64,000 nt of DNA from NCBI GenBank assembly GCA_027214385.1, contig JAPVXR010000002.1:372001-436000 (forward strand). The letters are read 5' to 3'. A model generated the notes under the pieces. It was not told where the DNA came from. It made no database searches and saw only the letters and a list, made by a program, of their open reading frames with translations. Source of the stretch: Cryomorphaceae bacterium 1068. GTDB lineage: Bacteria > Bacteroidota > Bacteroidia > Flavobacteriales_D > Cryomorphaceae. Positions 3,619 through 49,104 of this stretch are shown piece by piece (position 1 is the stretch's first letter; every line of letters starts with the position of its first letter). Made by a program: the position numbers and the translations under genes.

Positions 3619-3808
3619 GAGTCTCGAAAGAGAAAAATTACACTCTGCTTGGGGTTCATTTCGACCCTTAATCGTTAGCCGTCAGAAGCTTGGTTTGTTA
3701 AATGTTTTATGATTTTTGAGCCGCAGTTGGCGCTTTGCTGAAGTGAATCAAAATTCTATATATTTACGGCCTTGTTGCGAAAAAGTTAAAAATTGTAAAC
3801 CGAGATTT

Positions 3809-6800
3809 ATGGTGCGTAACCTCTACCTACTGGGATTTGTATTCTTTGTATTCTCTACTTCACTGTTTGCCCAGGTTGGATCGGGTACCTTGAAGGGGAC
3901 ACTAACAGATTCAGAGACGGGAGAACCCCTCCCTTTCGTAAATATTGTACTTCAAAAAGGAGACCGACAGGTTACCGGAAGTGCCACGGATTTTGACGGA
4001 AACTATACCATTAAACCAATTCCTCCAGGGACTTATGATGTCCTCGTTTCCTACGTTGGATACAATGCCAAGAAAATCGAAGGGGTAAAAATTAATAACG
4101 ATAAAATCACTTTCGTGAATATACCTCTTGAACAAGGTATTAAGCTGAAAGAGTTTGAAGTTGTTGAATATAGTGTTCCACTTATTGATAAGGATGGTGG
4201 TTCTTCAGGAGGTACCGTTAGTCGTGAGGATATCCAGAAGATGCCCGGTCGAAGTGCAAACTCTATCGCCGCTACGGTTGGAGGAGTTCAGCAGAATGGT
4301 AACGGAACATCCATACGTGGTGCGCGTGAAGGAAACACCTTTTACTACATCGACGGAATCAAGATTCGAGGTAACACCAACTTACCGAAAGCCGCTATTG
4401 AAGAAGTGCAAGTAATGACGGGTGGTATTCCAGCCAGCTACGGAGATGCAACTGGAGGTATTATCGCAATTACTACTCGTGGTGCAAGCAGTCAGTGGTT
4501 TGGAGGTATTGATATTTTAACCTCAGGTTTTGCCAATCAAGATGGTGGCGGTGTAGGTCTTGACCGCTACTCTCAAACACAAATCGAAGGAGTTCTCTCC
4601 GGGCCACTTCTTTGGAAAAAGAATGCTGCGGGAGAAAAGGAACGTCCAATGCTGGGTTTCTTCCTCTCTGCCAACTACCGAAACTTTATGGACACACGTC
4701 CACTAGCCACAGGGTCATTCCGTATTAAAGAGGATGTTCGAAATCGTTTGGTCGCTGACCCTTTGAACTTCACTTTGCAAGACGGTGGAACAGCCGTAGG
4801 ACAGGGTGGTGTATTTATAGACGAAGATGGAAACCCTGCGGACGCCAGCCAATTCTTAGACCAAGTACAAGCAAACAATAACGCTGAGTTCTTGCGATCT
4901 AGTGATTGGGAGGAGATTCCTGCTCGTCAAAACGGTAGACTTCAAGCTGTATCTCTGACAACGAAACTAGATGTTGCAACGACTCCGAATATTGATTTAT
5001 CATTTGGGGGTACTTATGATTATTCTACGAATAAAAACTGGAGCTACAACAATAGTTTGTTCAATTCAGCGAATAACGGTGAATCCATCAATCAGACCTT
5101 TAGAATTTTTGGAAGATTCACTCAGCGATTTGCTAATAGCCAAGAAGAAGAGGGTGGATTGATAAAGAATGCTTTCTACTCGCTCATGGTAGATTATAGC
5201 CAGATTAACGGGCGTACTCAAGATCCGAGACATGAGGATAATCTTTTTAACTATGGATACGTAGGGAAGTTTGAGACAATTGAGGAGCCTTTCTTTCAGT
5301 ACATCCAAGCAAACGATTCCCTAACTACTTCAGGGTTTTATCAAAATGGGTTCGTTCCCAGAGAGATTATTTTCACTCCAAGCGACGTGAATTCTGATTT
5401 GGCTTCTTACACTTCCGATTTGTTTCAATTTTTTGACGCAAACGGTATCCCTGTGGTTACGGAAAATCAAATTGATGCTTCCGGTGGTTTAAGAAACGGA
5501 AGAACTCCTGGTTCTATATTCAACTTGTATAACCCAATAGGTTCACCTTTTGGGACTTATCAAACGTTTGACATCAATCAATTTAGGATTACCGGTTCCG
5601 GTTCGGCCGATATCGGAAACCACGCCATTACGCTTGGATTTGAATTCGAGCAATACACAGAAAGGAACTTCAGTGTTGCGCCTATCGGACTATGGAATTT
5701 AGCGCGTCAATACACCAATGCCCATTTGGAGCAGTTTGATACGAGCGTACCTTCTGATACACTTACAGGTTTGGGTGTCGATCCTTTCTTTACTTATGAC
5801 AGAATTATCAGTTTAGATAATCAACAGACTTTTGATAGAAATCTGAGAACATCTCTTGGACTCAATCCGAACGGAGATGATATCATCTACGTTGATGCTC
5901 TTGACCCTGAGCTTTTCGAACTCGACATGTTCAGTGCCGACGAATTATTGAATCAAGGAAATAATTTGGTTTCGTACTACGGTTATGACTACAAAGGTGA
6001 CCGGCTAACGGGTGGAAGACCTACCATTGATGACTTCTTCACTGAAAGAGATGAGAACGGTGATTTCACTCGACCAATAGGTGCTTTTGAGCCGATATAT
6101 ATCGCGGGTTATATCATGGATAAGTTCACCTTCGATGACATCATCTTCAATGTTGGGCTTCGTGTGGACCGTTATGATGCCAACCAGTCTGTGTTGAAAG
6201 ATCAGTTTGTGATCGGAGAAGCTTTGACGGTGCAAGACACAAGAAATAGTGGTGAGGGTGGAAGATTGCTTCCTGATGAGATCCGTCAGCATCCATCAGT
6301 TGTTGGAGACGATTGGGTTGTTTATGTGAACGATCTTCAAAATCCAACGGCCATTAACGGATACCGCGATGGTAACACTTGGTACAATGCTCAAGGTGTT
6401 GAGATTCCTGATCCACGTGCTATTAGAACGAACTCTGGTATCGCTCCTCTTTTAGCTGATCCTGACGCAGTTGGAGAAAACCTGAATTCAGGTGCTTTTG
6501 AAGATTACGACCCGCAGTGGAATATAATGCCACGTATCTCTTTCTCATTCCCTATTTCGGATGAGGCGGTTTTCTTTGCTCACTATGACGTGTTGACGCA
6601 GAGACCTACAGGGCAGAATATAAATAACCCGATCAATTACCTTTTTATTCAGAATATTGGTCAAACAGCTATCGCGAATCCAAACTTGCGCCCTACTAGA
6701 ACCATTGACTACGAGTTGGGTTTCCAACAAGTATTGTCTAGAACTTCATCGCTAAAGATTGCAGCTTTCTATCGTGAAACGCGTGATGAGATTCAAGTGC

Positions 6801-7582
6801 GTAACTTATTAGAGGCATATCCTGTGACTTATAACTCTTTCGACAATTTTGACTTCGGAACAGTAAAAGGACTTACGTTAACATATGATTTGAGAAGAAC
6901 AGGTAATGTAACACTGCGTGTTGCTTATACCTTGCAGTTCGCTTCTGCTACGGGTTCCAATGCAGGTTCAGCTATCAACTTAGTTAATTCAGGTGAACCT
7001 AACTTACGTGTGATCTTCCCAACAAGTAGAGACCAAAGACACTTATTGATTACCACTTTTGACTATCGATATGGTTCAGGAGCAGATTACAATGGACCTA
7101 CCATTGGAGGTAAACAAATACTTGCAAATGCAGGCTTAAACATTGTGGGGACTCTAGGCTCAGGAACGCCATACTCTCAGCAGAGATTAGTTACGGGTAC
7201 TCAACTTCAAAGCGGGGGAGGTACTCCACAGCTAGAAGGATTGGTAAACGGTTCTAGGCTACCGTGGCAGTTTAATGTGAACGCTCAAATAGATAAATCA
7301 TGGGAGTTGAAATTTGGAAAAGGTGAAGAGAAGAAAACAGCTTTCCTTAATGCTTATCTACTTGTAAATAATGTTTTGAATACAATGAACATTATCAATG
7401 TTTACCGATTCACAGGAAACCCTGACAATGACGGGTATTTAGAATCACCTAGGTTCCAGCCTAACATCGAGGCGCAAATTGATCCGGAAGCTTTCCGTCA
7501 GATGTATGCTTTGAAGGTGAATAATCCATTTAATTTTTCTGTTCCCAGAACTATCCAGTTGGGAGTGAGACTTGACTTTTAA
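3809..7582 (+). CDS. TonB-dependent outer-membrane receptor with CarboxypepD-reg-like domain
   Basis: The 1,257-residue protein has a signal peptide (MVRNLYLLGF..., cleaved near FAQ at 22), then a carboxypeptidase-regulatory-like beta domain (about 24-110, SGTLKGTLTDSETGEPLPFVNI), a plug domain with the EEVQVMTGGIPASYGDATGG box, and a beta-barrel ending PRTIQLGVRLDF with terminal Phe. It should sit in the outer membrane and import or sense a ligand using energy from the TonB-ExbB-ExbD system. No substrate is evident, and no SusD partner follows. Instead the next two genes encode a giant secreted protein and a PorV-like protein, and this arrangement suggests a shared surface role. The start is the last ATG before the signal peptide. 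Confidence 0.88.
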   Translation: MVRNLYLLGFVFFVFSTSLFAQVGSGTLKGTLTDSETGEPLPFVNIVLQKGDRQVTGSATDFDGNYTIKPIPPGTYDVLVSYVGYNAKKIEGVKINNDKITFVNIPLEQGIKLKEFEVVEYSVPLIDKDGGSSGGTVSREDIQKMPGRSANSIAATVGGVQQNGNGTSIRGAREGNTFYYIDGIKIRGNTNLPKAAIEEVQVMTGGIPASYGDATGGIIAITTRGASSQWFGGIDILTSGFANQDGGGVGLDRYSQTQIEGVLSGPLLWKKNAAGEKERPMLGFFLSANYRNFMDTRPLATGSFRIKEDVRNRLVADPLNFTLQDGGTAVGQGGVFIDEDGNPADASQFLDQVQANNNAEFLRSSDWEEIPARQNGRLQAVSLTTKLDVATTPNIDLSFGGTYDYSTNKNWSYNNSLFNSANNGESINQTFRIFGRFTQRFANSQEEEGGLIKNAFYSLMVDYSQINGRTQDPRHEDNLFNYGYVGKFETIEEPFFQYIQANDSLTTSGFYQNGFVPREIIFTPSDVNSDLASYTSDLFQFFDANGIPVVTENQIDASGGLRNGRTPGSIFNLYNPIGSPFGTYQTFDINQFRITGSGSADIGNHAITLGFEFEQYTERNFSVAPIGLWNLARQYTNAHLEQFDTSVPSDTLTGLGVDPFFTYDRIISLDNQQTFDRNLRTSLGLNPNGDDIIYVDALDPELFELDMFSADELLNQGNNLVSYYGYDYKGDRLTGGRPTIDDFFTERDENGDFTRPIGAFEPIYIAGYIMDKFTFDDIIFNVGLRVDRYDANQSVLKDQFVIGEALTVQDTRNSGEGGRLLPDEIRQHPSVVGDDWVVYVNDLQNPTAINGYRDGNTWYNAQGVEIPDPRAIRTNSGIAPLLADPDAVGENLNSGAFEDYDPQWNIMPRISFSFPISDEAVFFAHYDVLTQRPTGQNINNPINYLFIQNIGQTAIANPNLRPTRTIDYELGFQQVLSRTSSLKIAAFYRETRDEIQVRNLLEAYPVTYNSFDNFDFGTVKGLTLTYDLRRTGNVTLRVAYTLQFASATGSNAGSAINLVNSGEPNLRVIFPTSRDQRHLLITTFDYRYGSGADYNGPTIGGKQILANAGLNIVGTLGSGTPYSQQRLVTGTQLQSGGGTPQLEGLVNGSRLPWQFNVNAQIDKSWELKFGKGEEKKTAFLNAYLLVNNVLNTMNIINVYRFTGNPDNDGYLESPRFQPNIEAQIDPEAFRQMYALKVNNPFNFSVPRTIQLGVRLDF

Positions 7583-7588
7583 TTAAGA

Positions 7589-10500
7589 ATGAACATTAAA
7601 TCTAATACTATGAGAGTGTCCAAAATCGTCTTGATTTTTACAGCTCTGCTCTTGGGCTTAACTACCAGCGTATCAGCGCGAGAATATTTAGGTCCTAAAT
7701 CGAATTCATCCCAAGCCAATGTGAAGGCCAAGGCAGCTACTTGTTCACCTGCGCAAACGCAGAATGAGTTTTTCGTCAATAATGTGCGAACTGCAGCTGA
7801 GACCGGAGGAAATACTTGGTATGACCGAGGGAATGGCTTGCCATTTTACGAAGTTCCTGCGGGTGGTGGAAATCACGCGATTTTTGCGGGTGCATTATGG
7901 ATGGGAGGAACTGATCCTGCGGGTAACTTGAAGTTAGCAGCAGTTCGATTCCGTCAAAACGGAAATGACTTCTGGCCTGGTCCCCTAACGGATGATGGTG
8001 CTGCAACTATTGACGATGCGACTTGTGAAGCTTACGACACGTTTTTCAATATGTCTCGTCAGGCAGTGGAAACACACCGTTACTTCTACACGCTGGTTAA
8101 CCAAGGAATAGACCCGAGCACAGATCCTTTGTTTGAGGATGGGTACTCAATTCCTACTGAAATTCTTGAATGGCCTGCTCATGGTAATACGGGATTAGGT
8201 CAAAGCTTCAATTTGGCACCCTTTGCTGATTTGAGAGATCCTGTAACGGGTGATATCCTAACCACACCAGGTCTATATGAACCTCAACAGGGAGATTATC
8301 CATTATACGATTTGGACTCTGAAATTGATTGTAGGACGAGGTTGGTTACTGATCCTGTTCCACTTTTTGGTGACTTCTCGATGTATTGGATATTTAATGA
8401 CAAAGGAAATATTCACACTGAATCTCAAGGTGACCCTATTGGTATGGAAATCCAAGCACAGATGTTTGCCTTCAACACCAATGACGAGATCAATAACATG
8501 ACTTTTTGCAACTATGTCCTTATCAATAGGGGCTCATTGACGTTGGAAGAAACTTTCTTTGCTCAATGGGTAGATACTGATTTGGGAAATGCTGAAGACG
8601 ATTATGTAGGATGCGATGTTGGAAGAGGTTTAGGTTATTCATACAACGGGTCCAACTTTGACGGAAGCTCAGGGAGTGGTCCTGGTTATGGAACTCAACC
8701 ACCTGCAATTGGAATTGATTTCTTTGAAGGACCTTACCAAGATCCTGACGGTATCAATAACCTCTACGGAATCGGAGAAGGCGAGGCTCTGAATGGATTA
8801 GGTTACAGAAATGAAGCCGATGCATTTCCAGACTCTATTATTGATAATGAGCGTTTTGGAATGAGGCGATTTTTGTATCACCAAAATTCTGAACCACCCG
8901 TTGCTACTCAAGGTCCTCAAGTAGCAGTAGAGTATTATCAAATGATGCAAGGAATTTGGAGAGATAACACTCCCATGTCATTTGGTGGTCAGGGTTATGC
9001 CCCAACCAACCCCAACGCTCTTAGGTCCGACTTCATGTTCCCGGGAGACTCAGACCCGCTTCATTGGGGTACAGGAGGCGTAGATCCGAACTACTCCACC
9101 GCAGGAGGATGGACAGAAGAGAATGAGGGAAACCCTGCTTCTGATAGAAGATTCCTTCAGTCTGCGGGTCCTTTTACACTCGATCCGGGAGAGTTTAATA
9201 ACATTACAGTCGGAGCGGTTTATGCAAGAGCAACTTCAGGGGGGCCCTTCGCATCTGTAAACAGTGTGTTTGTTGCAGATGATAAGGCGCAGGCTTTGTT
9301 TGAAAACTGCTTCAGGCTATTGAGTGGTCCTGATGCTCCTGATTTGACTGTTCAAGAACTTGACAGAACGTTGATCTTCTATTTGAGGAACACCAACGCA
9401 TTAAGTAACAACTTGGGCGAAGCTTATTTCGAGATCGATCCTACGATTCCCGAGTTTGACACTGAAGGAAACCCTTACGATCGCACTTATAATTTCCAAG
9501 GGTATCAAGTTTATCAATTGCGTGACTCTGAAGTGTCGGCAGGTGATTTGGAAGAAACTTCATTGGCAAGACTATTATTCCAAGTTGATATTGAAGATTT
9601 TAATGAGAATGGAGAGCCTATCGCTCAAATCATAAATTATGAGTTTGATGAGCAAATAGGTCTTTCTGTTCCAAGGGAGAAGGTGAACGGTCAGAATGTT
9701 GGTATCTCTCACTCGTTTGAGGTAACTGATGATCTTTTTGCGCAAGGAGACAATAGACTCATTAATTTCAAAAAATACTATTACATGGCTGTTGCCTATG
9801 GGTACAACATGTATGAGCCTTACAATCCGGATCCTGATAATCCAACGGGACAGGCTTCTCCATACTTGGTCGGACGCTCTTCCGCTACCGGTGCTATCAA
9901 TCCGGTCGTGGCCATTCCATCTAAGCCAGCGCCTAGAACTTTTGGTACGGTTGCTAATTCCAGCTATGGAGACGGTTTACCAATTACCAGAATTGAAGGA
10001 ACGGGTAATGGAGGAAATGAGTTGAGGTTGACACAGGGTACAATTAATAATATAATGGCTGGTGCACCTTATAAGGCTGATACTCTTGTATACGAGACTG
10101 GTTTCGGACCGTTGAATGCCAAAGTTGTTGATCCTCTTAATGTAAGAGCTGCCGATTTTGTTTTGAAATTCTATAACGATGTGGATGAGGAAGGCAACTA
10201 TACTGGCGATTTTGATGATGCTCGGTGGTTTTTGATCGACAAAGCAAACCCAAATGATACAATTTTCAGTGAGAACACCATACGTGTAGCGAATGAACAA
10301 ATCGTTCCTGAATATGGAATAAGCGTAGAGATAGGCCAATATGATTTTGAAATCTCGAATCCACAGGCTGAAAACACCAAGTTTATGCCAGCACTTCTAA
10401 ACTCTTCTGTTTCATATAGCACTGAAGGTGGAGAATGGTTGTCAGGTGTTGCAGACCAAGAAGGATTCACTTACCTCAACTGGGTTAGAGCGGGAACTGT

Positions 10501-12025
10501 CGTAACAGAAGACCCTGAAGGGGATGAACCTTGTTATTTGCCGGAACCGACACCCGAGGATCCGAATCCGCTTCCACTGGATGCCTTCTGGGATGATAAG
10601 TTGGGTATTGATGACAGACAAGTTTATGAAGATGTAGTAGGAGGAACTTTTGCACCTGCTCACTTGGTAAATCAGAACAACTGTGGATTAGGTGCATTCA
10701 ATACCATCGCTGAGTCTCAATCTCGAACAAATACTTCAAATCGGGATATGACTGATTTGAGTTCAATGCAGGTAGTCATTACTCCGGACAAGTCCCTTTG
10801 GACTCGTGTTCCTGTATTTGAGATGCAACATGATCCCGCTTTCTCTCAATTAGGAGTTGAAAAAATGCTATTGAGAGGAGCGCTCTCCGTCGATAAGAAT
10901 GGTCTGAACCAATCTCAGGATGGAGTAAATGAGGAAGAAGCAACCTACTTTGGCGAACAAGTCTACACAACAGAATATGTAGATGAGTTAATCGATGACT
11001 TAGATGAAGATGAGCTCAATGCCTACTTGATTGCTGTTGATAGTGAATACCCTTCATTGAATATCGTAGAGGGCGTTGGATCAGATACTGAATTCTTCCC
11101 ATACCGATTGGTCGGTCTCTCATTCGGAATGGGTTACTTTCCAGGTTATGCGATCAATGTTGAAACTGGCGAAAGATTGAACATGGGCTTCGCAGAGAAT
11201 TCATTCTTTGGAGCTGATAATGGTAGAGATATGCTCTGGAATCCATCGGCACGTATATCTTCTCCTCTCGGACAGCAATTGTTCTTAGGAGGCGAGCATT
11301 ACTTCTACGTATTCGACAATAATGCTCTATACAAAGACGATGATGGCGAATTCCCGATGTATGATGGCGGAAAGTATGCGTTTGATGCCTTTACAGATGG
11401 AAGTGCCAGTGATCGACGTAGAACTTTTGCAGGATTGGAATGGGTAGGTTTCCCGCTCTTAGCTCAAGGGTTTGAGTATCGAAGTCCTCAAGATGGATTG
11501 GTACCTGGTGAAGTGATTATTTCAGCCAGTGTTGCCAGACCTTATGAGCCTTATGCTACGGCAGCGGATGAATTAGGAGACGGATCACTTCCTTACATCC
11601 CAACGGGTGAATCACTCGAATTAAGTGATAACCAGTGGTATCCCATGTATGAATTCAGCACCAAAGGTTCAGAAGTATTCGTGAATCAAGAAGTAGTAGC
11701 CGAGGAATCATTAAATTTGATAGACATTGTACCAAATCCTTACTATGCTTACAGCTCATATGAGCAAAGTAGAGTGGACAACAGGGTGAAGTTTATCAAC
11801 TTACCTCCTGAGTGTAAAATTCAAGTATTTACAGTTAACGGTACTTTGATTCGAATTCTCGAAAAAGACAATCCAAATACTTTCTTGGAATGGGATCTTA
11901 GAAACGAAGCGTTCATTCCGGTAGCAGGAGGTATTTACTTAATCCACGTGTCAGTTCCCGGCGTTGGAGAGCGAGTACTGAAGTTTTTCATGGCGACTCG
12001 ACCTGCTGACTTAAGAAACCTCTAA
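7589..12025 (+). CDS. Very large secreted protein with T9SS-type C-terminal region
   Basis: The product has about 1,478 residues (1,471 from the ATG at 7610, which gives the more usual signal peptide MRVSKIVLIFTALLL...). The mature N-terminus carries a conserved block seen in large Bacteroidota exported proteins (NNVRTAAETGG..., GALWMGGTDPAG, FWPGP). The body is acidic, Gly/Asn/Asp-rich and without a catalytic motif that I can name. The C-terminus resembles a type IX sorting domain: IVPNPYYAYSSYE, then IQVFTVNGTLIR, then GGIYLIHV. It continues with an unusual tail, KFFMATRPADLRNL. It is 6 bases downstream of the receptor gene and 27 upstream of the PorV-like gene, so all three are probably co-transcribed. 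A surface-exposed or receptor-associated role is inferred, not shown. Confidence 0.78.
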   Translation: MNIKSNTMRVSKIVLIFTALLLGLTTSVSAREYLGPKSNSSQANVKAKAATCSPAQTQNEFFVNNVRTAAETGGNTWYDRGNGLPFYEVPAGGGNHAIFAGALWMGGTDPAGNLKLAAVRFRQNGNDFWPGPLTDDGAATIDDATCEAYDTFFNMSRQAVETHRYFYTLVNQGIDPSTDPLFEDGYSIPTEILEWPAHGNTGLGQSFNLAPFADLRDPVTGDILTTPGLYEPQQGDYPLYDLDSEIDCRTRLVTDPVPLFGDFSMYWIFNDKGNIHTESQGDPIGMEIQAQMFAFNTNDEINNMTFCNYVLINRGSLTLEETFFAQWVDTDLGNAEDDYVGCDVGRGLGYSYNGSNFDGSSGSGPGYGTQPPAIGIDFFEGPYQDPDGINNLYGIGEGEALNGLGYRNEADAFPDSIIDNERFGMRRFLYHQNSEPPVATQGPQVAVEYYQMMQGIWRDNTPMSFGGQGYAPTNPNALRSDFMFPGDSDPLHWGTGGVDPNYSTAGGWTEENEGNPASDRRFLQSAGPFTLDPGEFNNITVGAVYARATSGGPFASVNSVFVADDKAQALFENCFRLLSGPDAPDLTVQELDRTLIFYLRNTNALSNNLGEAYFEIDPTIPEFDTEGNPYDRTYNFQGYQVYQLRDSEVSAGDLEETSLARLLFQVDIEDFNENGEPIAQIINYEFDEQIGLSVPREKVNGQNVGISHSFEVTDDLFAQGDNRLINFKKYYYMAVAYGYNMYEPYNPDPDNPTGQASPYLVGRSSATGAINPVVAIPSKPAPRTFGTVANSSYGDGLPITRIEGTGNGGNELRLTQGTINNIMAGAPYKADTLVYETGFGPLNAKVVDPLNVRAADFVLKFYNDVDEEGNYTGDFDDARWFLIDKANPNDTIFSENTIRVANEQIVPEYGISVEIGQYDFEISNPQAENTKFMPALLNSSVSYSTEGGEWLSGVADQEGFTYLNWVRAGTVVTEDPEGDEPCYLPEPTPEDPNPLPLDAFWDDKLGIDDRQVYEDVVGGTFAPAHLVNQNNCGLGAFNTIAESQSRTNTSNRDMTDLSSMQVVITPDKSLWTRVPVFEMQHDPAFSQLGVEKMLLRGALSVDKNGLNQSQDGVNEEEATYFGEQVYTTEYVDELIDDLDEDELNAYLIAVDSEYPSLNIVEGVGSDTEFFPYRLVGLSFGMGYFPGYAINVETGERLNMGFAENSFFGADNGRDMLWNPSARISSPLGQQLFLGGEHYFYVFDNNALYKDDDGEFPMYDGGKYAFDAFTDGSASDRRRTFAGLEWVGFPLLAQGFEYRSPQDGLVPGEVIISASVARPYEPYATAADELGDGSLPYIPTGESLELSDNQWYPMYEFSTKGSEVFVNQEVVAEESLNLIDIVPNPYYAYSSYEQSRVDNRVKFINLPPECKIQVFTVNGTLIRILEKDNPNTFLEWDLRNEAFIPVAGGIYLIHVSVPGVGERVLKFFMATRPADLRNL

Positions 12026-12052
12026 GAATCTATTTCCTACAATCAAACGATT

Positions 12053-13120
12053 ATGATGAATCGATATAAAAATGCAATCCTGACCTTAGCGGTTCTTTCA
12101 GGAGTTTTATTTACATCATCTGTATTTGCAGGGAACCCTGATCGCGCTGGCTCTGCGGGAGGACTGCAGTTATTGATCAATCCTTGGGCGCGCAGTGGAG
12201 CCTTCTCTGGTGCCAATATGGCTGACGCAACGCCGGTTGAGTCAATGTTTTTAAACGTGGCAGGCCTAGCTTTTGTCGAACAAACAGAAGTTTCATTTAC
12301 ACATACCAACTACCTTTCAGGGGCAGATGTTGCGATAAACTCCGTAGGAATTGCCCAAAGAGTAGGTGAGACAAGTGTATTGGGGATTTCGATTAGCGCA
12401 ATGGATTTTGGTGATATCAGACGTACAACGACAGAGACTCCGGACGGAGACGGAACCTTCTTCAATGTGAACATGGTGAATTTAGGACTGTCTTTTGCCA
12501 AAGCCTTCTCAAATAGCATTTATGGAGGAATTACACTTAAGATTCTTTCAGAAAGTGTAGCTGACCTTAGTGCTTCCGGTGTTGCTATAGACGCAGGGAT
12601 TAAGTACGTAACAGGGGAGAGAGACCAAGTTAAATTTGGTATAACGTTGAAGAATGTTGGTCCTGCGCTTTCTTTTGAAGGAGACGGGTTGAGTTTTGAA
12701 ACAGAAGCTCCCGACGATTTATATGCTTTCACAGCTGAGTTGAGAAGTGCTGAATATGAACTTCCATCTCTTGTATCGATAGGTTTCAGCTATGACTTCT
12801 TATTGCCCGAAAATCACTATTTGACAGCTCATGGAACGTTCATCGCGAATTCCTTTAACAATGACAACTACTTGTTCGGTCTTGAATATAGCTTCTTGAG
12901 AAAGTTCTATTTGCGCGGTGGTTACCACTACGAAGAGAATATTTTCAATGATGCCGATCGTCGAGTTGTTTATACTGGTCTTTCAGCCGGTGCCGGACTT
13001 GAGTTTGAATTCGGTGAAAAGAGATCACGTATTAGCGTAGATTATGCCTACCGTGCTACCATGCCATTCGATGGTTCTCATTCAATAGGTGCTAGAATCC
13101 ACTTGGGTCGGCCTGAGTAG
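12053..13120 (+). CDS. PorV/PorQ-family outer-membrane protein
   Basis: The 355-residue product has a signal peptide ending VFA-G (about 24) and the fold signature of the PorV/PorQ (UPF0164-like) beta-barrel family: an early GLQLLINPWARSGAFSGANMAD block, NVAGLAF, alternating strands, and a C-terminal barrel closing with RIHLGRPE. PorV itself is encoded elsewhere in this window, so this is a paralogue. PorV carries T9SS clients from the translocon to the PorU sortase. By analogy this one may handle the giant protein encoded just upstream, but that is an inference from gene order. A hairpin with a T run follows the gene. Confidence 0.8.
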   Translation: MMNRYKNAILTLAVLSGVLFTSSVFAGNPDRAGSAGGLQLLINPWARSGAFSGANMADATPVESMFLNVAGLAFVEQTEVSFTHTNYLSGADVAINSVGIAQRVGETSVLGISISAMDFGDIRRTTTETPDGDGTFFNVNMVNLGLSFAKAFSNSIYGGITLKILSESVADLSASGVAIDAGIKYVTGERDQVKFGITLKNVGPALSFEGDGLSFETEAPDDLYAFTAELRSAEYELPSLVSIGFSYDFLLPENHYLTAHGTFIANSFNNDNYLFGLEYSFLRKFYLRGGYHYEENIFNDADRRVVYTGLSAGAGLEFEFGEKRSRISVDYAYRATMPFDGSHSIGARIHLGRPE

Positions 13121-13152: not shown

Positions 13153-13184
13153 GAGAAAGCCCTGTAATGGGTTTTCTCTTTTTT
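13153..13184 (+). terminator. Hairpin with T run between the PorV-like gene and greA
   Basis: GAGAAAGCCC (13153-13162) pairs with GGGTTTTCTC (13169-13178) with one G-T wobble and a six-base loop, followed by six T. It can end the upstream three-gene operon. It also lies within the first bases of any transcript made from the -7 element just before it, so it may act as a promoter-proximal attenuator for greA. Confidence 0.75.
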
Positions 13185-40932: not shown

Positions 40933-42672
40933 TTATCTGGACTGGTTGAAACCAACCGGGCTTCCTACTCGATCCATGGCACATCTGAAACCAATAGTTG
41001 CAGTTGCTTTTCTTTCGTCCATAAAGCGTCTGGTACCAGGGCTTAAGTAATAAGCTCGATCTCTCCAGCTACCACCTTTATAAACTCGTGCTCTATTGCT
41101 TATCAAGGTAGTGTTTCCGTAATCATACATAGAGGCCTCATCCGCATTTGGAGAAGTGTAGTTGATGCTTGAATTGAAGTCTCCATCTTTGTAGTCAATG
41201 TTATCTGCCAAGCGATAATTGTCTCTGTCAATGTTTTCTTCCGGTCGAACTTTTCTCATTCTCACATTACCCGGAGTGTCCTCAACAAAATTTCCAACAC
41301 CACTAAGAAGTTCAGGAGCTATTCTCACGCCGCTGGTGCGGATAGCTTGAATAGCATCGCGAACCAATGTGTATGCTTCGTCTGCTTTACCTTCATTCAT
41401 TCTTTCCAAAGCTTGTTCGCTGAAAGAATTAAGGTTTTCCATGAGTTGAGCTTCTTCAGGATTTAATTTTCCTTGAGTTTCTTCGTCAAAGTCCTTGATG
41501 TATTGGTTTACACCTTCTACATCGTAGGTCACAACAGTAAGTTTGTCATCAATGGACCCTTCACTATCGAGAACTTTAGTTTTGTAGACATTACCTCTGA
41601 ATGGACGAAATTCATCCATGTCTTCAGGACTTAACGGGCGATAGACGTCCATTACCCACTCACTCACGTTTCCTGCCATATTGTAAAGACCATAGTCATT
41701 TGGCTGATACGCATATACAGGGGCTGTGACGTCTGCATTGTCATTAAGACTTCCGGCCACACCCATGTAGTCACCTTTTCCTCTTACGAAGTTTGCAACC
41801 AACTCACCGTAAAAACGACTGTTGTTGTCTCCTTCACGAACGTAGTGACCGTTCCATGGGTATACTTTTCTTTCTGTCACCAATTCTTGGAAAGAGTTTC
41901 CTACTAATCCATACGCTGCAAATTCCCATTCAGCTTCAGTTGGTAGGCGGTATCTCGGTAAGAGAATTCCATCTTCCATACGCACATTCCTGAACTCTTG
42001 ATCAGGATCTAAATCAGACAGACCGTCTACTCGCTTTCCGCTTTCGTATTGACCTGCCAAATAGGCATCTGTATCAAAATGGTCTTCGTTAATTTGTTGA
42101 GGAAAATGCTCAAATAAACCTTCACGGATTAAGATCGCCTCATTCACACGGTCAGATCTCCAAGCACAAAAGTCATTGGCTTGTAGCCAGTTTACGCCTA
42201 CCACAGGGTAGTCATTGTAAGCTGGATGGCGCAGGTAATATTCGACATAAGGTTCATTATAGGCCAAGCGAGAACGCCACACCAATGTATCAGGAAGGGC
42301 TTTCCTATAAATCTCGGGGTAATCTGCTCCATATACTCGACGCAACCAATAAAGATATTCCAACCAGTAAACGTTGGTCACCTCAGTTTCGTCCATGTAG
42401 AAGGAAGACACGGTAACTCTTCGCGGAATATTATTCCAATCCTTCATCACCATTTCTTCTGTAGCACCCATAGTGAATGTTCCTCCTTCGATCAGAATCA
42501 GACCTGGACCTGTTTCTTGTTCAGTGTAGAGAACTTTTTCAAATCCACCATTTGCAGGGTCGTTGTAATTCCAACCAGTGGCGCTTGAGCTTTCGTAGCT
42601 GCAAGAAGAGGTAGAGACAATTACTCCGCCCATCAAGGCTACTATTAAAAATTTTCCTGAAAAGACTTTCAT
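40933..42672 (-). CDS. gldJ: Gliding motility / type IX secretion lipoprotein GldJ
   Basis: The 579-residue lipoprotein has a signal peptide with lipobox Cys near residue 24 (VSTSSC), then a formylglycine-generating-enzyme-like (SUMF1) domain. Its parts are LILIEGGTFTMGAT, FYMDETEVTNVYWLEYLYW, PVVGVNWLQANDFCAWRS, RLPTEAEWEFAAYG, NVSEWVMDVYRP, and at the end GGSWRDRAYYLSPGTRRFMDERKATATIGFRCA. A GldJ-specific helical insert lies at about 390-470. GldJ is an outer-membrane-associated part needed for gliding and stabilises GldK and the T9SS. The ATG used gives a clean signal peptide. The PorP-like gene lies 48 bases upstream on the same strand. Confidence 0.93.
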   Translation of the reverse strand: MKVFSGKFLIVALMGGVIVSTSSCSYESSSATGWNYNDPANGGFEKVLYTEQETGPGLILIEGGTFTMGATEEMVMKDWNNIPRRVTVSSFYMDETEVTNVYWLEYLYWLRRVYGADYPEIYRKALPDTLVWRSRLAYNEPYVEYYLRHPAYNDYPVVGVNWLQANDFCAWRSDRVNEAILIREGLFEHFPQQINEDHFDTDAYLAGQYESGKRVDGLSDLDPDQEFRNVRMEDGILLPRYRLPTEAEWEFAAYGLVGNSFQELVTERKVYPWNGHYVREGDNNSRFYGELVANFVRGKGDYMGVAGSLNDNADVTAPVYAYQPNDYGLYNMAGNVSEWVMDVYRPLSPEDMDEFRPFRGNVYKTKVLDSEGSIDDKLTVVTYDVEGVNQYIKDFDEETQGKLNPEEAQLMENLNSFSEQALERMNEGKADEAYTLVRDAIQAIRTSGVRIAPELLSGVGNFVEDTPGNVRMRKVRPEENIDRDNYRLADNIDYKDGDFNSSINYTSPNADEASMYDYGNTTLISNRARVYKGGSWRDRAYYLSPGTRRFMDERKATATIGFRCAMDRVGSPVGFNQSR

Positions 42673-42720
42673 GGGAATTATGGTTTCTAGTATGCAGGTA
42701 TTCAAATTGAGACTGAAAAA

Positions 42721-43698
42721 CTAAAAAGCGGGGCATTTTATTGCCCTGAATTTCTTTTTCTTCGGCCTACAGTTAAAGTTGAAAGCAAAAGAAATCTCGT
42801 GTGAGCCAGCCGTCTCTGTAGTCAAGCGACTGGTGGTTAGGTCATAACTATATCCTGTTTTGAATCGATCTGTTTCGATTCCTAACAAGATGATAAATGA
42901 ATCTTCGAATCTATACCACACCCCACCAATTAGTGGCCCTTTTTGAATATAAAGACCTAAATTGATTTGCTGGAAATCATATTGCTGTTGGTAAAGAATG
43001 TTAGGGGAGATATAGGTATCAGTAGTCCCTTTAATGTCTTTGCCAAGAGGCAATTTAGCTCCTGCATGGACGGTATACTTTCTTTCTAGTGGTGCTTCTT
43101 GCACAATTAGTGATTCATTCGGTTCGAATAGGTGGTGTACGGCTACACCCCCAAAGAAGGTTTCACTAAATATGACAAAGCCTGTGCTAAAATCAACATT
43201 ATCGACTTTTCCACCCCGAGGAGTATCTTGTGTCTCGTATATAAATCCACGTCTGGGGTCAATCTGATCTCCAAAGGTCAGGCTACCCCAATCCAGATTT
43301 CTCTGAAAGTAGCTGGCTTGGAATCCTGCTACCATAGAAATCTTATCTGTCAAGGCTAATTGATAAGAATAGATACCATTTATTGAAAATTGGGTCAAGG
43401 TCCCTCTACCCGCATTGTCGCTCAGGACGTAAAGTCCTAGTCCTCCGCTCACAGCATCTACATATTGATCGTAAGAAACGCTGTTCGTCACAAAGTTTCC
43501 TGATAAAGCAGGCCATTGATTCCGATGGTTGAAAACCACCCTGGGACAGGTAGCAGTTCCAGCCAAAGCGGGGTTCAGATAGAGCGGATTCGCATAAAAT
43601 TGCGTGAAAGTAGGGTCTTGAGCCTTTGCCTCGGGCGTTGTCAAAACGCCGCAGAGTACAAAGATCGCAAGAGTTACAAAGGTCAGTCTACGCACCAT
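42721..43698 (-). CDS. PorP/SprF family type IX secretion outer-membrane protein
   Basis: The 325-residue protein has a signal peptide ending AKA-Q (near 27) and the PorP/SprF core: DPTFTQFYANPLYLNPALAGTA, then a beta-barrel with VSYDQYVDAVSGGLGLYVLSDNAG, ending FNFNCRPKKKKFRAIKCPAF with two Cys. Family members either belong to the T9SS outer-membrane ring (PorP) or anchor a specific adhesin (SprF). Its place next to gldJ and opposite porU favours the core machinery, but its exact type is not settled by sequence alone. A 7-of-8 -7 match (TATACTTG, 43741-43734 minus) lies upstream. Confidence 0.88.
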   Translation of the reverse strand: MVRRLTFVTLAIFVLCGVLTTPEAKAQDPTFTQFYANPLYLNPALAGTATCPRVVFNHRNQWPALSGNFVTNSVSYDQYVDAVSGGLGLYVLSDNAGRGTLTQFSINGIYSYQLALTDKISMVAGFQASYFQRNLDWGSLTFGDQIDPRRGFIYETQDTPRGGKVDNVDFSTGFVIFSETFFGGVAVHHLFEPNESLIVQEAPLERKYTVHAGAKLPLGKDIKGTTDTYISPNILYQQQYDFQQINLGLYIQKGPLIGGVWYRFEDSFIILLGIETDRFKTGYSYDLTTSRLTTETAGSHEISFAFNFNCRPKKKKFRAIKCPAF

Positions 43699-43917
43699 AA
43701 ATGGGGGTGAAAATGCAGTTTTTTTCAAAGCTCCAAGTATACGAATTTTTTTATTCGCGGTTTTCCCGTTAATCATAAGGATATGCAATAATTCGGAAGT
43801 AGCTGGCGTTTAGGCCATGTTTACGGATAAAATTACTGCATTCTCTTATTATTGTTACGTCTTGAGTGGTGTAAATTCACGCTAAGATTGTATTGTAAAA
43901 AAGAATCTCGCTACCTG

Positions 43918-46900
43918 ATGAGTAAGAATTATTTTTTATTGACGCTGTTTATAGTGTCTTCAATTTATCTATCAGCTCAACAAACTCAAGTTGTTGAGTT
44001 GAATTGGCAAACAGTCCCCGCCACCTTTGAAAGTGATGAAGGGCCTGTAGTCGTTCCCACGTTTGACGGTGCCTTGCACATTCTTAGTTACGGATACACT
44101 CCGAGAGCTCTGGTGAAAATTCCATTGAATAAAGGTCAACGTGTCACTTCGGTTTCTGTTAATCCTTTGGCAACGAAACAAAATTTCAAGTTTGACCGAA
44201 ATTTAGTTTCAAATACAGATAGGGAAGACAATCTGATTTGGGTTGTAAAAGATGAAAGGGGAATTCCTCAATTAATGGTTGAATATCTTCCATTTAGTCA
44301 AGCTGACGGTGCTCCGATTGAAAAATTTGAAATACGTTACGTCACCGCTCAGGATTTTGGGCGACCAAAAACCAATGACTACGCCGACAATAGTGTGATG
44401 GCCACCGGTGACTGGTACAAGATTGGCGTTGTCGAAGATGGAGTGTACAAACTGACACTGGGCGAACTTGAAGCATTGGGAATTGAAACGGATGTTTTGA
44501 ATCCGCAGGCTCTGAATATTTTTGGTAACGGATATGGTCAGCTGCCTTATGATAATAGCGTTGAAAGACCTGATGATCTTTTACAAAACGCCATTTACAT
44601 CGAAGGGGAAGCCGACGAGTTATTTGATGAGGAAGACTATATTCTCTTTTATGCGAAGGGACCTCATAAATGGAATTATGATTCCGAGTCTGGTCTTTTT
44701 GATCATGAGAAGCATGAGTACAGCGATACTTCGTACTACTTCATAGGAATCAATACAGGCCTCCCACCAAAGCGAATCCAGAACCTTTCATCTTCGGGAA
44801 GTTCACCCACCGTAGAAATCAACTCTTTTAATGACTACGCTTTTCAAGAAGTAGATCGAGAGAATGTTTTGAAAAGCGGCAGAACCTGGTATGGAGAGAA
44901 GTTTGACGTTCAAACGGTCTACACATACAGTGGTGAGCGATTTACTTTTCCCAATCACATTGCAGATTCTCCCGTCACACTCAGAGCTTCTGTGATTTCT
45001 CGTAATACGGCGGGCTCTTCAACTTTTCAAATTGGTGTTAACGGTGAAACGCAGACTACGAGCATAAGCTCTGTAGGTACTGGAGTGGTATCGGCTTTTG
45101 CCAGAACACGTGATTTAACCCTCATCACTAGTACTCCATCTTCAGCCTTAAACATCAGTTTTGCCTATGATAAACGTGGTATTCCTTCGGCCTCGGGTTG
45201 GTTGGATTGGTTTAATGTCAACATTAGACGAGAGCTGACTATGGCGCGATCTCAAATGATATTTAGAGATGTTGAATCCGTGGGGCAGGGGCAGATCGGG
45301 CGATTTAATGTAGCCAATGCCAACTCTATACAAGAAATTTGGGAAGTGACAAGTCCTGCGGATATAAAACGAATACAATACAACAATACTGGAGGTGTGG
45401 CTACCTTCACCTTGACAACTGAGACGATAAGAGAATTCGTCGCCTTTACAGGCTCATCTTTTAAAGAGCCCGCAATTTTTGGACCCGTAGGAAATCAAAA
45501 TCTACATGCCCTTGGAGCCCAGGGAGGTATTGATATGGTCATCGTAAGTCCTTCATTTTTGGTGAGTCAGGCAGAACAACTTGCTGAAATTCATAGAAAT
45601 CATCCAGAAGATCCATTAAGTGTGGAAGTTGTGGCTTTGAATAGAGTTTACAATGAATTCTCCTCAGGAATGCGCGACGTTACGGCCATCAAATGGCTGA
45701 TGAAAATGCTCTATGATCGGACGGGAGGCAATGATGATTTGGCCCCGAAATATCTACTTTTATTTGGGGATGGGTCTTACGACAATATCAATTTCTCGGC
45801 CAATAATTCAAATTTGATTCCGACCTATCAATCAGAAAATTCATTGAGTCCGACCAGTTCTTTCGTTAGTGATGATTACTATGGCCTACTATCAGACGAT
45901 GACGGCGATGGGAATGCAGACTTAATGGATATCAGCGTAGGCCGTTTAGTGATAAAGAATTCAGCGGAAGCATCATCGGTAGTCAATAAAATAAGCCGGT
46001 ATATTGAAACCTCTTCTTCAGATTGTCTCACCTGCAATGACGCTAATAGCTCATTTGGTTCTTGGAGAAACATCATTGCCTTGGTAGCAGATGACGAGGA
46101 TTTGAACAATCACATGCAAAATTCACGAACAATTAGTTCACAGATTGAAGGATACACCAAGGTATTTAATCTTGAGAGAATATTTACGGATGCCTTTCAG
46201 CAAGTGGCGACTCCAGGGGGGGATAGATATCCTGATGTAAACGAGGCAATCGATAGGCGCGTGAGAAACGGAGCCTTTATCATTAATTACATTGGTCACG
46301 GTGGGGAAACAGGTTGGGCGCAAGAAAGAATATTGGATATACCCACTATTCTCGATTGGGATAACACCTATCAGATGCCGATCTTTATGACCGCGACATG
46401 CGAATTTACGAGATTTGATGATCCGATAAGAACTTCTGCGGGTGAGTATGTTCTCTTAAATGCCGGAGGTGGTGGTGTTGCGCTATTGACCACAACCCGC
46501 TTGGTATATGCAGGTCCGAATTTTCAGTTGAATACAGCCTTTTATGACGCATTATTTACTCGTCCCGAGGATGAAGTTGTAACGCGGTTGGGGGATGTTT
46601 ATCGAGATACCAAGAATATCTCAGCTTCAAGTTCTCCTAATCATAGAAACTTCAGTTTGATCGGTGATCCTGCGCTGCCAATGGCGATACCTAAATATGA
46701 TATTTTCGCTGCCAGTATTACCGATACGCTTGGAAACCCGGTAGATACTTTAAAAGCGCTCGGTGTGGCGCGGGTGGCTGGCACTGTCACTACAGCATCG
46801 GGTCAGGTCAATTCAAATTTCAACGGTTTGATTGAGGCTACGGTTTACGATCGAGTAAAGCAGCGTAATACTTTGAGTAATGACGGAGGCTCAGTTTTCA

Positions 46901-47772
46901 CCTACCCAACTCAAGAAGATGTTGTCTATAAAGGATTGGCTGAAGTCAATAATGGTCAGTTTGAATTTGACTTTGTTTTACCCAAGGATATTTCTTTTGC
47001 GGTTGATACAACTGCTAGGATAAGTTTTTACGCATACTCCCAGACAGAAGATGCAACAGGATTTGAGGACGGATTGAGTATAGGAGATCGAGATGAAAAT
47101 GCAGTGAATGATGGGCAGGGGCCTGAGATTGACCTATTCATGAATGATGAGAATTTCGTTTTTGGCGGGTATACGGATAACGAACCGATCCTTCTTGCCA
47201 AGATTTTTGACCCCAACGGAGTCAATACGGTAGGCACAGGGATAGGGCATGATATCAGCGCTGTTTTGGATGGAGATGTAGCCAACACCTTTATATTAAA
47301 CGATTACTATAGCTCAGATTTGAGTACTTATCAAAGAGGTTCCGTGAAGTTCCCATTTGACGAATTATCTCCCGGAAACCACTCGGTGGAACTAACCGTT
47401 TGGGATGTACATAACAATTCGAGTAAATCCAATATTGAATTTATCGTTGCCGAATCTGAAGGCCTGGCGATTGAGAGGGTGTTGAATTACCCCAATCCAT
47501 TCACTACACACACTGAATTTTATTTCGAACACAACCAGAGCACGGAATTTCTAAATGTTCTAATCGAAATCTATACTGTTACGGGAAAATTGGTAAAAAC
47601 CATTAATACTGTATCCAATACCGAAGGATTTCGTAACGTACCTATTCCTTGGGATGGTCGAGATGATTTTGGCGATCGTCTAGCTACAGGAACATACGTA
47701 TATAAGGTGTCAGTTAAGAACCCTTCAGGGGATAAAGACATGAAATTCGAAAAACTCGTAATTCTCAATTAG
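43918..47772 (+). CDS. porU: Type IX secretion system sortase PorU
   Basis: PorU is the outer-membrane C25 peptidase that removes the C-terminal sorting domain of T9SS cargo and attaches cargo to the surface. The 1,284-residue product has a signal peptide (MSKNYFLLTLFIVSSIYLSAQ), a long beta-rich N-terminal half, and a gingipain-type domain with catalytic His794 in NYIGHGGETGW and Cys828 in MTATCEFTRFD. It ends in its own sorting-like domain (VLNYPNPFTTHTEFYFEH...GTYVYKVSV...KLVILN). Start chosen at the signal peptide. It faces away from the PorP-like gene and is followed by porV. Confidence 0.95.
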   Translation: MSKNYFLLTLFIVSSIYLSAQQTQVVELNWQTVPATFESDEGPVVVPTFDGALHILSYGYTPRALVKIPLNKGQRVTSVSVNPLATKQNFKFDRNLVSNTDREDNLIWVVKDERGIPQLMVEYLPFSQADGAPIEKFEIRYVTAQDFGRPKTNDYADNSVMATGDWYKIGVVEDGVYKLTLGELEALGIETDVLNPQALNIFGNGYGQLPYDNSVERPDDLLQNAIYIEGEADELFDEEDYILFYAKGPHKWNYDSESGLFDHEKHEYSDTSYYFIGINTGLPPKRIQNLSSSGSSPTVEINSFNDYAFQEVDRENVLKSGRTWYGEKFDVQTVYTYSGERFTFPNHIADSPVTLRASVISRNTAGSSTFQIGVNGETQTTSISSVGTGVVSAFARTRDLTLITSTPSSALNISFAYDKRGIPSASGWLDWFNVNIRRELTMARSQMIFRDVESVGQGQIGRFNVANANSIQEIWEVTSPADIKRIQYNNTGGVATFTLTTETIREFVAFTGSSFKEPAIFGPVGNQNLHALGAQGGIDMVIVSPSFLVSQAEQLAEIHRNHPEDPLSVEVVALNRVYNEFSSGMRDVTAIKWLMKMLYDRTGGNDDLAPKYLLLFGDGSYDNINFSANNSNLIPTYQSENSLSPTSSFVSDDYYGLLSDDDGDGNADLMDISVGRLVIKNSAEASSVVNKISRYIETSSSDCLTCNDANSSFGSWRNIIALVADDEDLNNHMQNSRTISSQIEGYTKVFNLERIFTDAFQQVATPGGDRYPDVNEAIDRRVRNGAFIINYIGHGGETGWAQERILDIPTILDWDNTYQMPIFMTATCEFTRFDDPIRTSAGEYVLLNAGGGGVALLTTTRLVYAGPNFQLNTAFYDALFTRPEDEVVTRLGDVYRDTKNISASSSPNHRNFSLIGDPALPMAIPKYDIFAASITDTLGNPVDTLKALGVARVAGTVTTASGQVNSNFNGLIEATVYDRVKQRNTLSNDGGSVFTYPTQEDVVYKGLAEVNNGQFEFDFVLPKDISFAVDTTARISFYAYSQTEDATGFEDGLSIGDRDENAVNDGQGPEIDLFMNDENFVFGGYTDNEPILLAKIFDPNGVNTVGTGIGHDISAVLDGDVANTFILNDYYSSDLSTYQRGSVKFPFDELSPGNHSVELTVWDVHNNSSKSNIEFIVAESEGLAIERVLNYPNPFTTHTEFYFEHNQSTEFLNVLIEIYTVTGKLVKTINTVSNTEGFRNVPIPWDGRDDFGDRLATGTYVYKVSVKNPSGDKDMKFEKLVILN

Positions 47773-47795
47773 TTCGATTGAGCTACTCATTTAAC

Positions 47796-47803
47796 TATAT
47801 TTG
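47796..47803 (+). promoter_or_regulatory. -7 element of porV
   Basis: TATATTTG is an exact TANNTTTG match 20 bases before the ATG. A TTG at 47778-47780 is only 15 nt upstream, shorter than usual. porV may thus have its own transcript besides read-through from porU. Confidence 0.55.
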
Positions 47804-47823
47804 CATCCGCAAGATTTTTGCAC

Positions 47824-49104
47824 ATGAAAAATAAGATTCTTCTTTTTGTAATAACAGGCCTAACGGTTCTATCAGTAAAGGCCCAAAATCCGGTAGATTG
47901 TGCCGGAGCTGTAAACGGAAGTAATTGCGATGAACTGCGCGCCATTACTACAGCCGTTCCTTTTCTGCTTATTGGTCCCGATTCAAGAAGTGGAGCAATG
48001 GGAGAAGTAGGAGTTGCAATATCTTCTGATGCAAACGCCCAGCACTGGAATGCTTCAAAATTGGCTTTCGCTGAAGAAGAAATGGAGTTTTCTCTTTCTT
48101 ATAGTCCTTGGCTTAGACAACTTGTAGATGACATGAACTTAGCTTATCTCTCTGGGTACAAGAAAATCAGCAAGACTTCAGCAATTGGCGGAAGTCTTCG
48201 ATACTTTACCTTAGGTGATATCATATTTACTGATCAAAATGGTACTGAAATCAGACCATTTCGACCAGCTGAATTTGCTTTGGATGTGAGCTATTCACTC
48301 CAGCTTTCGAGTAAATTCTCAGGTGGTATTACCGCCCGTTGGATTAACTCAAATTTGACAGGTGGTGTAAATGTCGGTGGTGCAGATTCAAAAGCTGCCA
48401 ATGCATTTGCTGTAGATCTTTCAGGATACTACAAAGACGATGATATTTCTCTTGGGGATAAAGATGCTGCCTTGGCCTTCGGTATCGCTATTTCGAATAT
48501 CGGTAATAAGATTTCATACACCAACACCGCTCAAAGAGATTTCCTTCCGATGAACTTGAGGTTGGGTGGTGCATTTACAATTGATCTCGATCAATTCAAT
48601 TCAATCACGTTTGCATATGATGCGAATAAATTGCTTGTACCATCACCAGCCCTATACGATCAAAATGATCCTACCAAGATAATCGCGGGAAGAGATCCTG
48701 ATGTGGGTGTTGCTGAAGCAATTTTTGGCTCGTTTAGCGATGCTCCCGGTCGTCCGATTCGAGACGAAGACGGAGCTGTAGTATTGAATGATGAAGGATT
48801 AGCAGAAATAGAAAGCGGAAGTGTTTTTCAAGAAGAATTGAGAGAAATCAACCACTCTATAGGTTTTGAGTATTGGTATGCGAATCAATTCGCCGTTCGT
48901 GGGGGGTACTTTTATGAGCATCCTACTAAAGGTAACCGCCAGTACTTCACCATCGGAGCAGGTTTCCGTTACAATGTATTCGGTCTTGACCTTTCTTACC
49001 TGATTCCGACAGAACAAAGGAATCCATTGGCAAACACCTTACGCTTTACGCTGCGCGTGGCCTTTGACAGCTCAGGGCCCGCTCCCGCAGATACTACCAA
49101 CTAA
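47824..49104 (+). CDS. porV: Type IX secretion outer-membrane protein PorV
   Basis: The 426-residue beta-barrel protein has a signal peptide (MKNKILLFVITGLTVLSVKAQ) and the PorV core block TTAVPFLLIGPDSRSGAMGEVGVAISSDANAQHWNASKLAF. It ends with the barrel segment QFAVRGGYFYEHPTKGNRQYFTIGAGFRYN and NPLANTLRFTLRV. PorV binds the sorting domain of cargo as it leaves the SprA translocon and hands it to PorU. It directly follows porU, the usual order in Bacteroidota. The ATG is preferred to a TTG two codons earlier. Confidence 0.94.
   Translation: MKNKILLFVITGLTVLSVKAQNPVDCAGAVNGSNCDELRAITTAVPFLLIGPDSRSGAMGEVGVAISSDANAQHWNASKLAFAEEEMEFSLSYSPWLRQLVDDMNLAYLSGYKKISKTSAIGGSLRYFTLGDIIFTDQNGTEIRPFRPAEFALDVSYSLQLSSKFSGGITARWINSNLTGGVNVGGADSKAANAFAVDLSGYYKDDDISLGDKDAALAFGIAISNIGNKISYTNTAQRDFLPMNLRLGGAFTIDLDQFNSITFAYDANKLLVPSPALYDQNDPTKIIAGRDPDVGVAEAIFGSFSDAPGRPIRDEDGAVVLNDEGLAEIESGSVFQEELREINHSIGFEYWYANQFAVRGGYFYEHPTKGNRQYFTIGAGFRYNVFGLDLSYLIPTEQRNPLANTLRFTLRVAFDSSGPAPADTTN

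Follow-up and report, generated by a model that had tools for sequence, protein, structure and literature searches.

Within a 64,000-nucleotide stretch of the genome of Cryomorphaceae bacterium 1068 (contig JAPVXR010000002.1, positions 372,001 to 436,000 of the forward strand; hereafter the window), three consecutive genes encode a TonB-dependent receptor (T), a giant secreted protein (G) and an outer-membrane barrel of the PorV/PorQ family (P), a trio that looks like a surface-capture module. Their open reading frames (ORFs) share one strand and are separated by 6 and 27 bases, both exactly as an earlier sequence-only reading of this DNA had given them, and the features are collected in Table 1. 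That reading had also described a secreted protein of about 1,475 residues; its secreted character stands, and the ORF list corrects its length to 1,478. The T frame opens at a TTG at position 3716, upstream of the ATG that begins the signal peptide. G carries a Sec signal peptide and no lipobox, both as read by eye. The parts of the trio are of known kinds and their combination is new to us; no published description of it was found in the portion of the literature covered, which leaves subscription papers and preprints outside its scope.

Table 1. Features of the T-G-P locus in window coordinates
Feature	Position	Strand	Basis
T: TonB-dependent receptor, 1,257 residues from the ATG, signal peptide, CarboxypepD_reg and Plug domains	3809..7582	+	ORF, Pfam
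G: giant secreted protein, 1,478 residues, no Pfam family	7589..12025	+	ORF, Pfam
G N-terminal domain, about residues 55-577, beta-sandwich fold like that in glycoside hydrolases/phosphorylases	7751..9319	+	AlphaFold2 model
G C-terminal domain, PorZ-like	11621..12022	+	Profile A4 against PDB sequences
G conserved C-terminal tail, type-A-like lysine to last residue	11981..12022	+	74-sequence comparison
P: PorV/PorQ-family 14-stranded outer-membrane barrel, 355 residues	12053..13120	+	NCBIfam PorV_fam, fold
Terminator-like hairpin after P, 10 pairs and a T run	13153..13178	+	Consensus match only

The linkage of T, G and P is far beyond chance. Of 60 related genomes, 58 have a G match, among them all 51 of good quality. 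In 17 of 19 G neighbourhoods from related genomes the three genes lie in this order on one strand (T being cut by the contig end in one of them, L038); the remaining two hold a lone G paralogue. The 80 best of the 550 loci matched in a scan of public genome contigs are from Flavobacteriales, Bacteroidales and other Bacteroidota, strains of Brumimicrobium and Crocinitomix included. Among the 63 G genes at these 80 loci that have complete ends and room on both sides, 53 adjoin both T and P, two adjoin T only and one P only.

Co-occurrence is near-perfect as well. A sample of 198 genomes across the class (presumably Bacteroidia) was searched for G and P at E 1e-30 and for T at E 1e-100, and G was present in 171 genomes, P in 164 and a T orthologue in 162, with all three in 156. 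G and P agree in 189 genomes (both in 163, neither in 26); G occurs without P in eight and P without G in one, a genome that is 69% complete, and the T orthologue never occurs without G (162 of 162). Fisher p values, which ignore kinship among the genomes, are 2e-24 (G and P) and 6e-26 (G and T). Mostly, a genome of the class has one P and one T. Among the 150 matches listed for each of these two genes, 135 P matches are in genomes for which a T match is listed too; 15 of these pairs are on different contigs, and in all 120 pairs that share a contig T is upstream of P on the same strand, at 3.8 to 7.0 kb in 119 and at 7,031 bases in one. Independent occurrence of the three families in most genomes, which would have told against the sequence-only reading, is thus not what is seen: they co-occur and adjoin across the class, and paralogous sets are found in four genomes of other classes.

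Across the phylum, the G profile matched 133 of 247 genomes, many of them outside the class, mainly through the middle part and the C-terminal domain of G. Four other-class genomes assembled as one contig have 15 to 19 PorV-family matches each at E 0.001, some of them under the cut-off. Fifty loci were taken from them, and in these 47 genes passed the profile threshold for the PorV family, a subset of all matches. With a G-P gap of up to 1.5 kb and a T-G gap of up to 3 kb as the definition, 27 of the 47 are T-G-P triads (10, 9, 4 and 4 per genome), and four more have T near P and no assigned G. At L172 and L180, also in other classes, T lies directly before P and a G-like gene farther upstream of T. 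In a sample of the phylum, 132 genomes of other classes have a match, and by our own count about 70 of them have at least 8 scored PorV-family candidates, compared with at most 5 matches in the listed genomes of the class. Nine G proteins from the other-class triads were searched against Pfam, with no match over the cut-off. In the two genomes with most triads (G089, with 10, and G189, with 9), the intragenome distances of P, the C-terminal domain, T and the body of G all correlate (Mantel r 0.65-0.86, p 0.001 or less). The three genes of a triad thus tend to be passed on, and to change, together.

Sequence and fold both place P in the PorV/PorQ family, though not as any of its named members; this bears out the sequence-only description of it as a PorV/PorQ paralogue. 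It passes the NCBIfam PorV_fam model for the PorV/PorQ family (NF033709, 151.1 bits, cut-off 90) and fails the models for PorV (NF033710, 59.2 bits, cut-off 250), PorQ (NF033711, 77.8 bits, cut-off 220), PorV2 (NF052325, 60.5 bits, cut-off 325) and BamG (19.3 bits, cut-off 250). As modelled within the fusion described below, P is a 14-stranded barrel of the PorV/FadL fold. Its best structural match is PorV of Flavobacterium johnsoniae (8gl6_F, Z 33.9, root-mean-square deviation 3.9, 296 aligned residues), followed by another PorV entry (6h3i_F, Z 33.1), FadL (Z 30.0) and chains of the BAM complex (Z 25.4, 9n2d_B, which we take to be BamG). When its sequence profile was compared with the PDB, PorV was the only relative up to E 0.01.

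Identification of P as PorV, PorQ or PorV2 itself was rejected, the scores being far below the cut-offs and the genome having its own copies. The true PorV of the window, at 47818-49104, scores 480.6 bits and adjoins PorU (43852-47772). PorQ is a separate gene with 313 bits (L214), and a PorV2-like fragment of 156 residues at a contig end (G000:C4) reaches 241.7 bits, under the cut-off for PorV2, probably through truncation. P thus comes in addition to the PorV, PorQ, PorZ and PorV2-like fragment that this genome already encodes, as one more barrel of the PorV family.

The Plug domain of T (PF07715) scores 36.9 bits against a cut-off of 23.9 and identifies it as a TonB-dependent receptor; the CarboxypepD_reg domain that the sequence-only reading had also named is present too, and both domains are matched in 17 of 17 T orthologues. 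No SusC-family model is among the NCBIfam matches of T up to E 0.1, and T was accordingly rejected as a SusC. Neither T, G nor P has a SusD match among the Pfam and NCBIfam models, and these results agree with the earlier statement that the locus is not a standard polysaccharide utilisation locus. In one relative (L047, 1550-2308) a response-regulator-like ORF, recognised by eye, lies directly upstream of T.

G has no Pfam family up to E 0.1. The AlphaFold2 model of its N-terminal domain finds its best structural match in 9ju0 (Z 19.1, root-mean-square deviation 3.1, 251 aligned residues), and entries for cellodextrin phosphorylase and GH116 match it at Z 17-18. In these glycoside phosphorylases and hydrolases the beta-sandwich precedes the catalytic barrel. 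That the domain binds carbohydrate is a guess from this modelled likeness; a shared fold alone does not show function. The genome also encodes a 591-residue paralogue of the domain (L053:7950-9725; G000:C5:143297-144667) that ends in a true type A sorting domain (TIGR04183, 46.1 bits) and whose 19-kb neighbourhood contains no match to T or P; the same N-terminal domain with an ordinary type A sorting signal there goes without a neighbouring barrel. In three relatives (L040, L043 and L051) P is followed by another copy of G, in the order T-G-P-G.

The other end of G, its last 134 residues, holds a conserved domain. Profile A4 of this domain has a single PDB match under E 0.01, residues 688-757 of PorZ (5m11, E 0.0088), which fall within the C-terminal domain of PorZ; the NCBIfam PorZ model finds it weakly (16.9 bits, residues 1371-1455). 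G itself was rejected as the PorZ of the genome, as the PorZ gene lies elsewhere, split over contig ends (G000:C17:93307-94206, 327.5 bits, and G000:C2:9-1385, 260.4 bits, with a cut-off of 260). PorZ and PorU retain the C-terminal domain after export (PMC11285876), and PorZ is proposed to be anchored at the surface by PorQ, PorQ:PorZ and PorV:PorU being described as subcomplexes (PMC5562754). Neither the type A sorting-domain models (TIGR04183 and PF18962) up to E 0.1 nor a type B model of Pfam or NCBIfam matches G of the window. Across 74 sequences the tail of G is conserved (Arg 74 of 74, Asp 74 of 74, Lys 72 of 74, final Phe 61 of 74), the near-invariant lysine close to the C-terminus being a feature of type A domains. 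This lysine contacts PorV in solved structures of type A domains, its main role being suspected elsewhere by the authors (PMC10994853). Among 15 ends scanned, nine have weak PF18962 matches (best E 0.0008) and eight have FlgD_ig matches (best E 9.8e-7).

A possible contact between this domain and P was approached with a fusion model, in which the end of G and P were predicted as one chain with the intergenic stop read as serine and 19 loci paired likewise. Alignment A5 comprised 70 of the 73 available relatives, and alignment A6 all 19 in-frame loci with 33 P-only rows, a part of those available. The read-through fusion has a predicted template modelling score (pTM) of 0.80 and a mean predicted local distance difference test score of 83.5. 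By a rough estimate, placement of the domain (about 100 residues) independently of P would give a pTM of about 0.68, so the higher value implies some confidence in the placement of the domain, and hints that it may dock on the barrel.

From these results we propose the following chain. G would be made with its Sec signal peptide and would then leave through the type IX translocon by means of its C-terminal domain. P would meet or retain it at the surface by binding that domain, as proposed for PorQ with PorZ and for PorV with PorU. The glycan-enzyme-like N-terminal domain of the anchored G could then serve as an external binding partner of T, which would import the ligand that G captures, perhaps a carbohydrate-like one. 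That P is the dedicated anchor or carrier of G is probable; for the whole chain, from type IX export through retention by P and partnership with T to ligand uptake, we see about even chances. The sequence-only reading had suggested a private shuttle or outer-membrane anchor for G, which would work with the receptor in capturing a large substrate. The anchor or carrier role is the best-supported one for P, because P has the PorV fold and the C-terminal domain of G resembles that of PorZ, for which PorQ is the proposed anchor; the privacy of P to G, a lasting hold on G and the joint capture of a large substrate by G and T are points that we infer. The translocon component SprA, present in 191 of the 198 genomes, occurs in 169 of 171 with G versus 22 of 27 without G (p 0.0006), the two G-bearing genomes that lack it being G355 (95% complete) and G461 (56% complete). 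This is consistent with type IX export of G, to a modest degree.

A number of observations weigh against the proposed chain. The support from SprA is only modest because nearly all genomes have SprA. Seven of the 63 G genes from the contig scan stand alone, with neither T nor P adjoining. Searched with the PorZ model, the end of G reaches only 20.9 bits, and other proteins of the same genome outscore it on the same region of the model (for example, 26.7 bits at G000:C15:101654-101908); protein ends in this and other genomes score as well as or above it. The resemblance of this domain to PorZ, as judged from sequence profiles, is therefore weak and not unique to G, and because PorZ-like ends are common in these genomes our confidence in the anchor role and in the whole chain was lowered in each case by the same small step. 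As for the docking, the hint comes from the pTM of this one fusion. The extracellular loops of P are no better conserved than its strands (0.615 vs 0.668), and loop conservation was dropped as an argument for docking. When the 27 other-class triads were compared across genomes, the nearest relative agreed for P and T in 14 and for P and the C-terminal domain in nine, against a chance level of about 0.05; after allowing for T, the partial correlation of P with the C-terminal domain, calculated by hand, is about -0.07 in G089 and 0.45 in G189. With no consistent excess between P and the C-terminal domain, their co-divergence speaks for inheritance as a unit and not for contact. Finally, the PDB matches listed for G include no SusD-like lid. 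More broadly, Foldseek and VIA-align list no lid-like or receptor-partner fold for residues 28-1200 of G, a range barely covered beyond about residue 650, and residues 1201-1344 are in neither model.

The competing explanation that survives best, which we consider unlikely, makes G an ordinary type IX cargo of the PorV that the genome possesses and P an independent FadL-like transporter, the genes being joined only for co-regulation in a nutrient response. The type-A-like lysine near the end of G and the weak type A matches in nine of the 15 scanned ends speak for it, as does the FadL fold that P shares. Yet the C-terminal domain of G in the window has no type A match and is closest in the PDB to PorZ, the fold of P is nearer to PorV than to FadL, with PorV as its only sequence relative there, and the short paralogue with a proper type A end has no P-like or T-like ORF around it.

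We think it improbable that the trio serves in signalling or adhesion, with G sensing or binding a surface or polymer and T relaying a signal or merely anchoring the complex. The N-terminal CarboxypepD_reg domain of T fits such a role, as do the size and likely surface location of G and the response-regulator-like frame just before T in one relative; the Plug domain of T, as found in transporters, speaks against it, and little else does, regulators among the neighbours not having been searched for systematically. Least probable of all is that P and G form a platform of surface assembly or biogenesis like BamG with BamH, helping T to fold or stay assembled without any uptake. The failure of P with the BamG model speaks against it, as do the roughly ten triads per genome in two other-class genomes, with G and T diverging as better suits ligand-specific systems; in its favour are the one P and one T of most genomes in the class, which would suit housekeeping, and the fact that BamG is likewise a FadL-family barrel holding a surface protein (PMC12578637).

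Capture at the surface by an anchored G would have several partial precedents. The nearest are the PorQ:PorZ and PorV:PorU pairs in the attachment complex of the type IX system; in the proposed arrangement, a secreted protein that retains its C-terminal domain is kept at the surface by a barrel of the PorV/PorQ family. The trio differs from PorQ:PorZ in that the N-terminal beta-sandwich of G has other relatives, P is neither PorQ nor PorV by model, a TonB receptor is included, and PorQ and PorZ are encoded separately in the same genome. PorV2 and its client PorU2 (NF052325 and NF052324) likewise have adjoining genes, and at L220 (7880-14157) the PorV2 gene directly precedes a PorU2 gene of 1,725 residues. 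There, however, the client is a sortase relative, P falls far below the PorV2 cut-off, and the only ORF at the locus that matches the T profile does so at 38 bits and lies about 3 kb upstream. Together with PorU and PorV in the window, this pair indicates that barrel-and-client gene pairs recur in the PorV family.

In Flavobacterium johnsoniae, type B cargo proteins have a cognate carrier barrel of the PorP/SprF kind encoded beside them, and these partner barrels are used for secretion and final location of the cargo (PMC12618676). P, in contrast, is of the PorV/PorQ family, G of the window has no type B match, and the set includes a T gene. SusCD systems and polysaccharide utilisation loci are similar in combining a TonB receptor with a dedicated external protein (as would hold for the trio) and in being multi-copy in some lineages; they are dissimilar in that the trio has no SusC or SusD match, and G would be delivered by type IX export and anchored by a barrel instead of being a lipoprotein. 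The pairing of BamG with BamH also has a FadL-family barrel that holds a surface protein, and is set apart by the BamG score of P and by the missing lipobox of G.

A wider proposal, which we put forward tentatively and regard as rather doubtful, is that the trio represents a second receptor-plus-lid uptake family of Bacteroidota beside SusCD, with a type-IX-exported external subunit held by its own PorV-like barrel, mostly single-copy and near-universal in many lineages of the class and expanded to about ten sets in the genomes of some other-class members. The NCBI models name P only as 'PorV/PorQ family', and G of the window has no family name in Pfam; if every barrel of this kind keeps a single resident protein at the surface, and if a TonB receptor goes with them, many unnamed outer-membrane genes would acquire a testable function, and type IX export would be seen to serve nutrient receptors directly.

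The surroundings of the trio add minor details. The hairpin after P is a weak signal, as the region contains 8 terminator-like sites of this kind versus 7.3 expected and so shows no excess. The only perfect sigma-70 promoter match lies inside G and is given no meaning. A type IX cluster with GldJ, PorP/SprF, PorU and PorV adjoining one another occupies positions 40933-49104 of the window. Upstream of the trio, at 1202-2608, lies an S-adenosylhomocysteinase-like gene (recognised by eye, no model having been run), which is found upstream of the trio in the relatives L034-L037, L039 and L041 as well, indicating a stable chromosomal setting.

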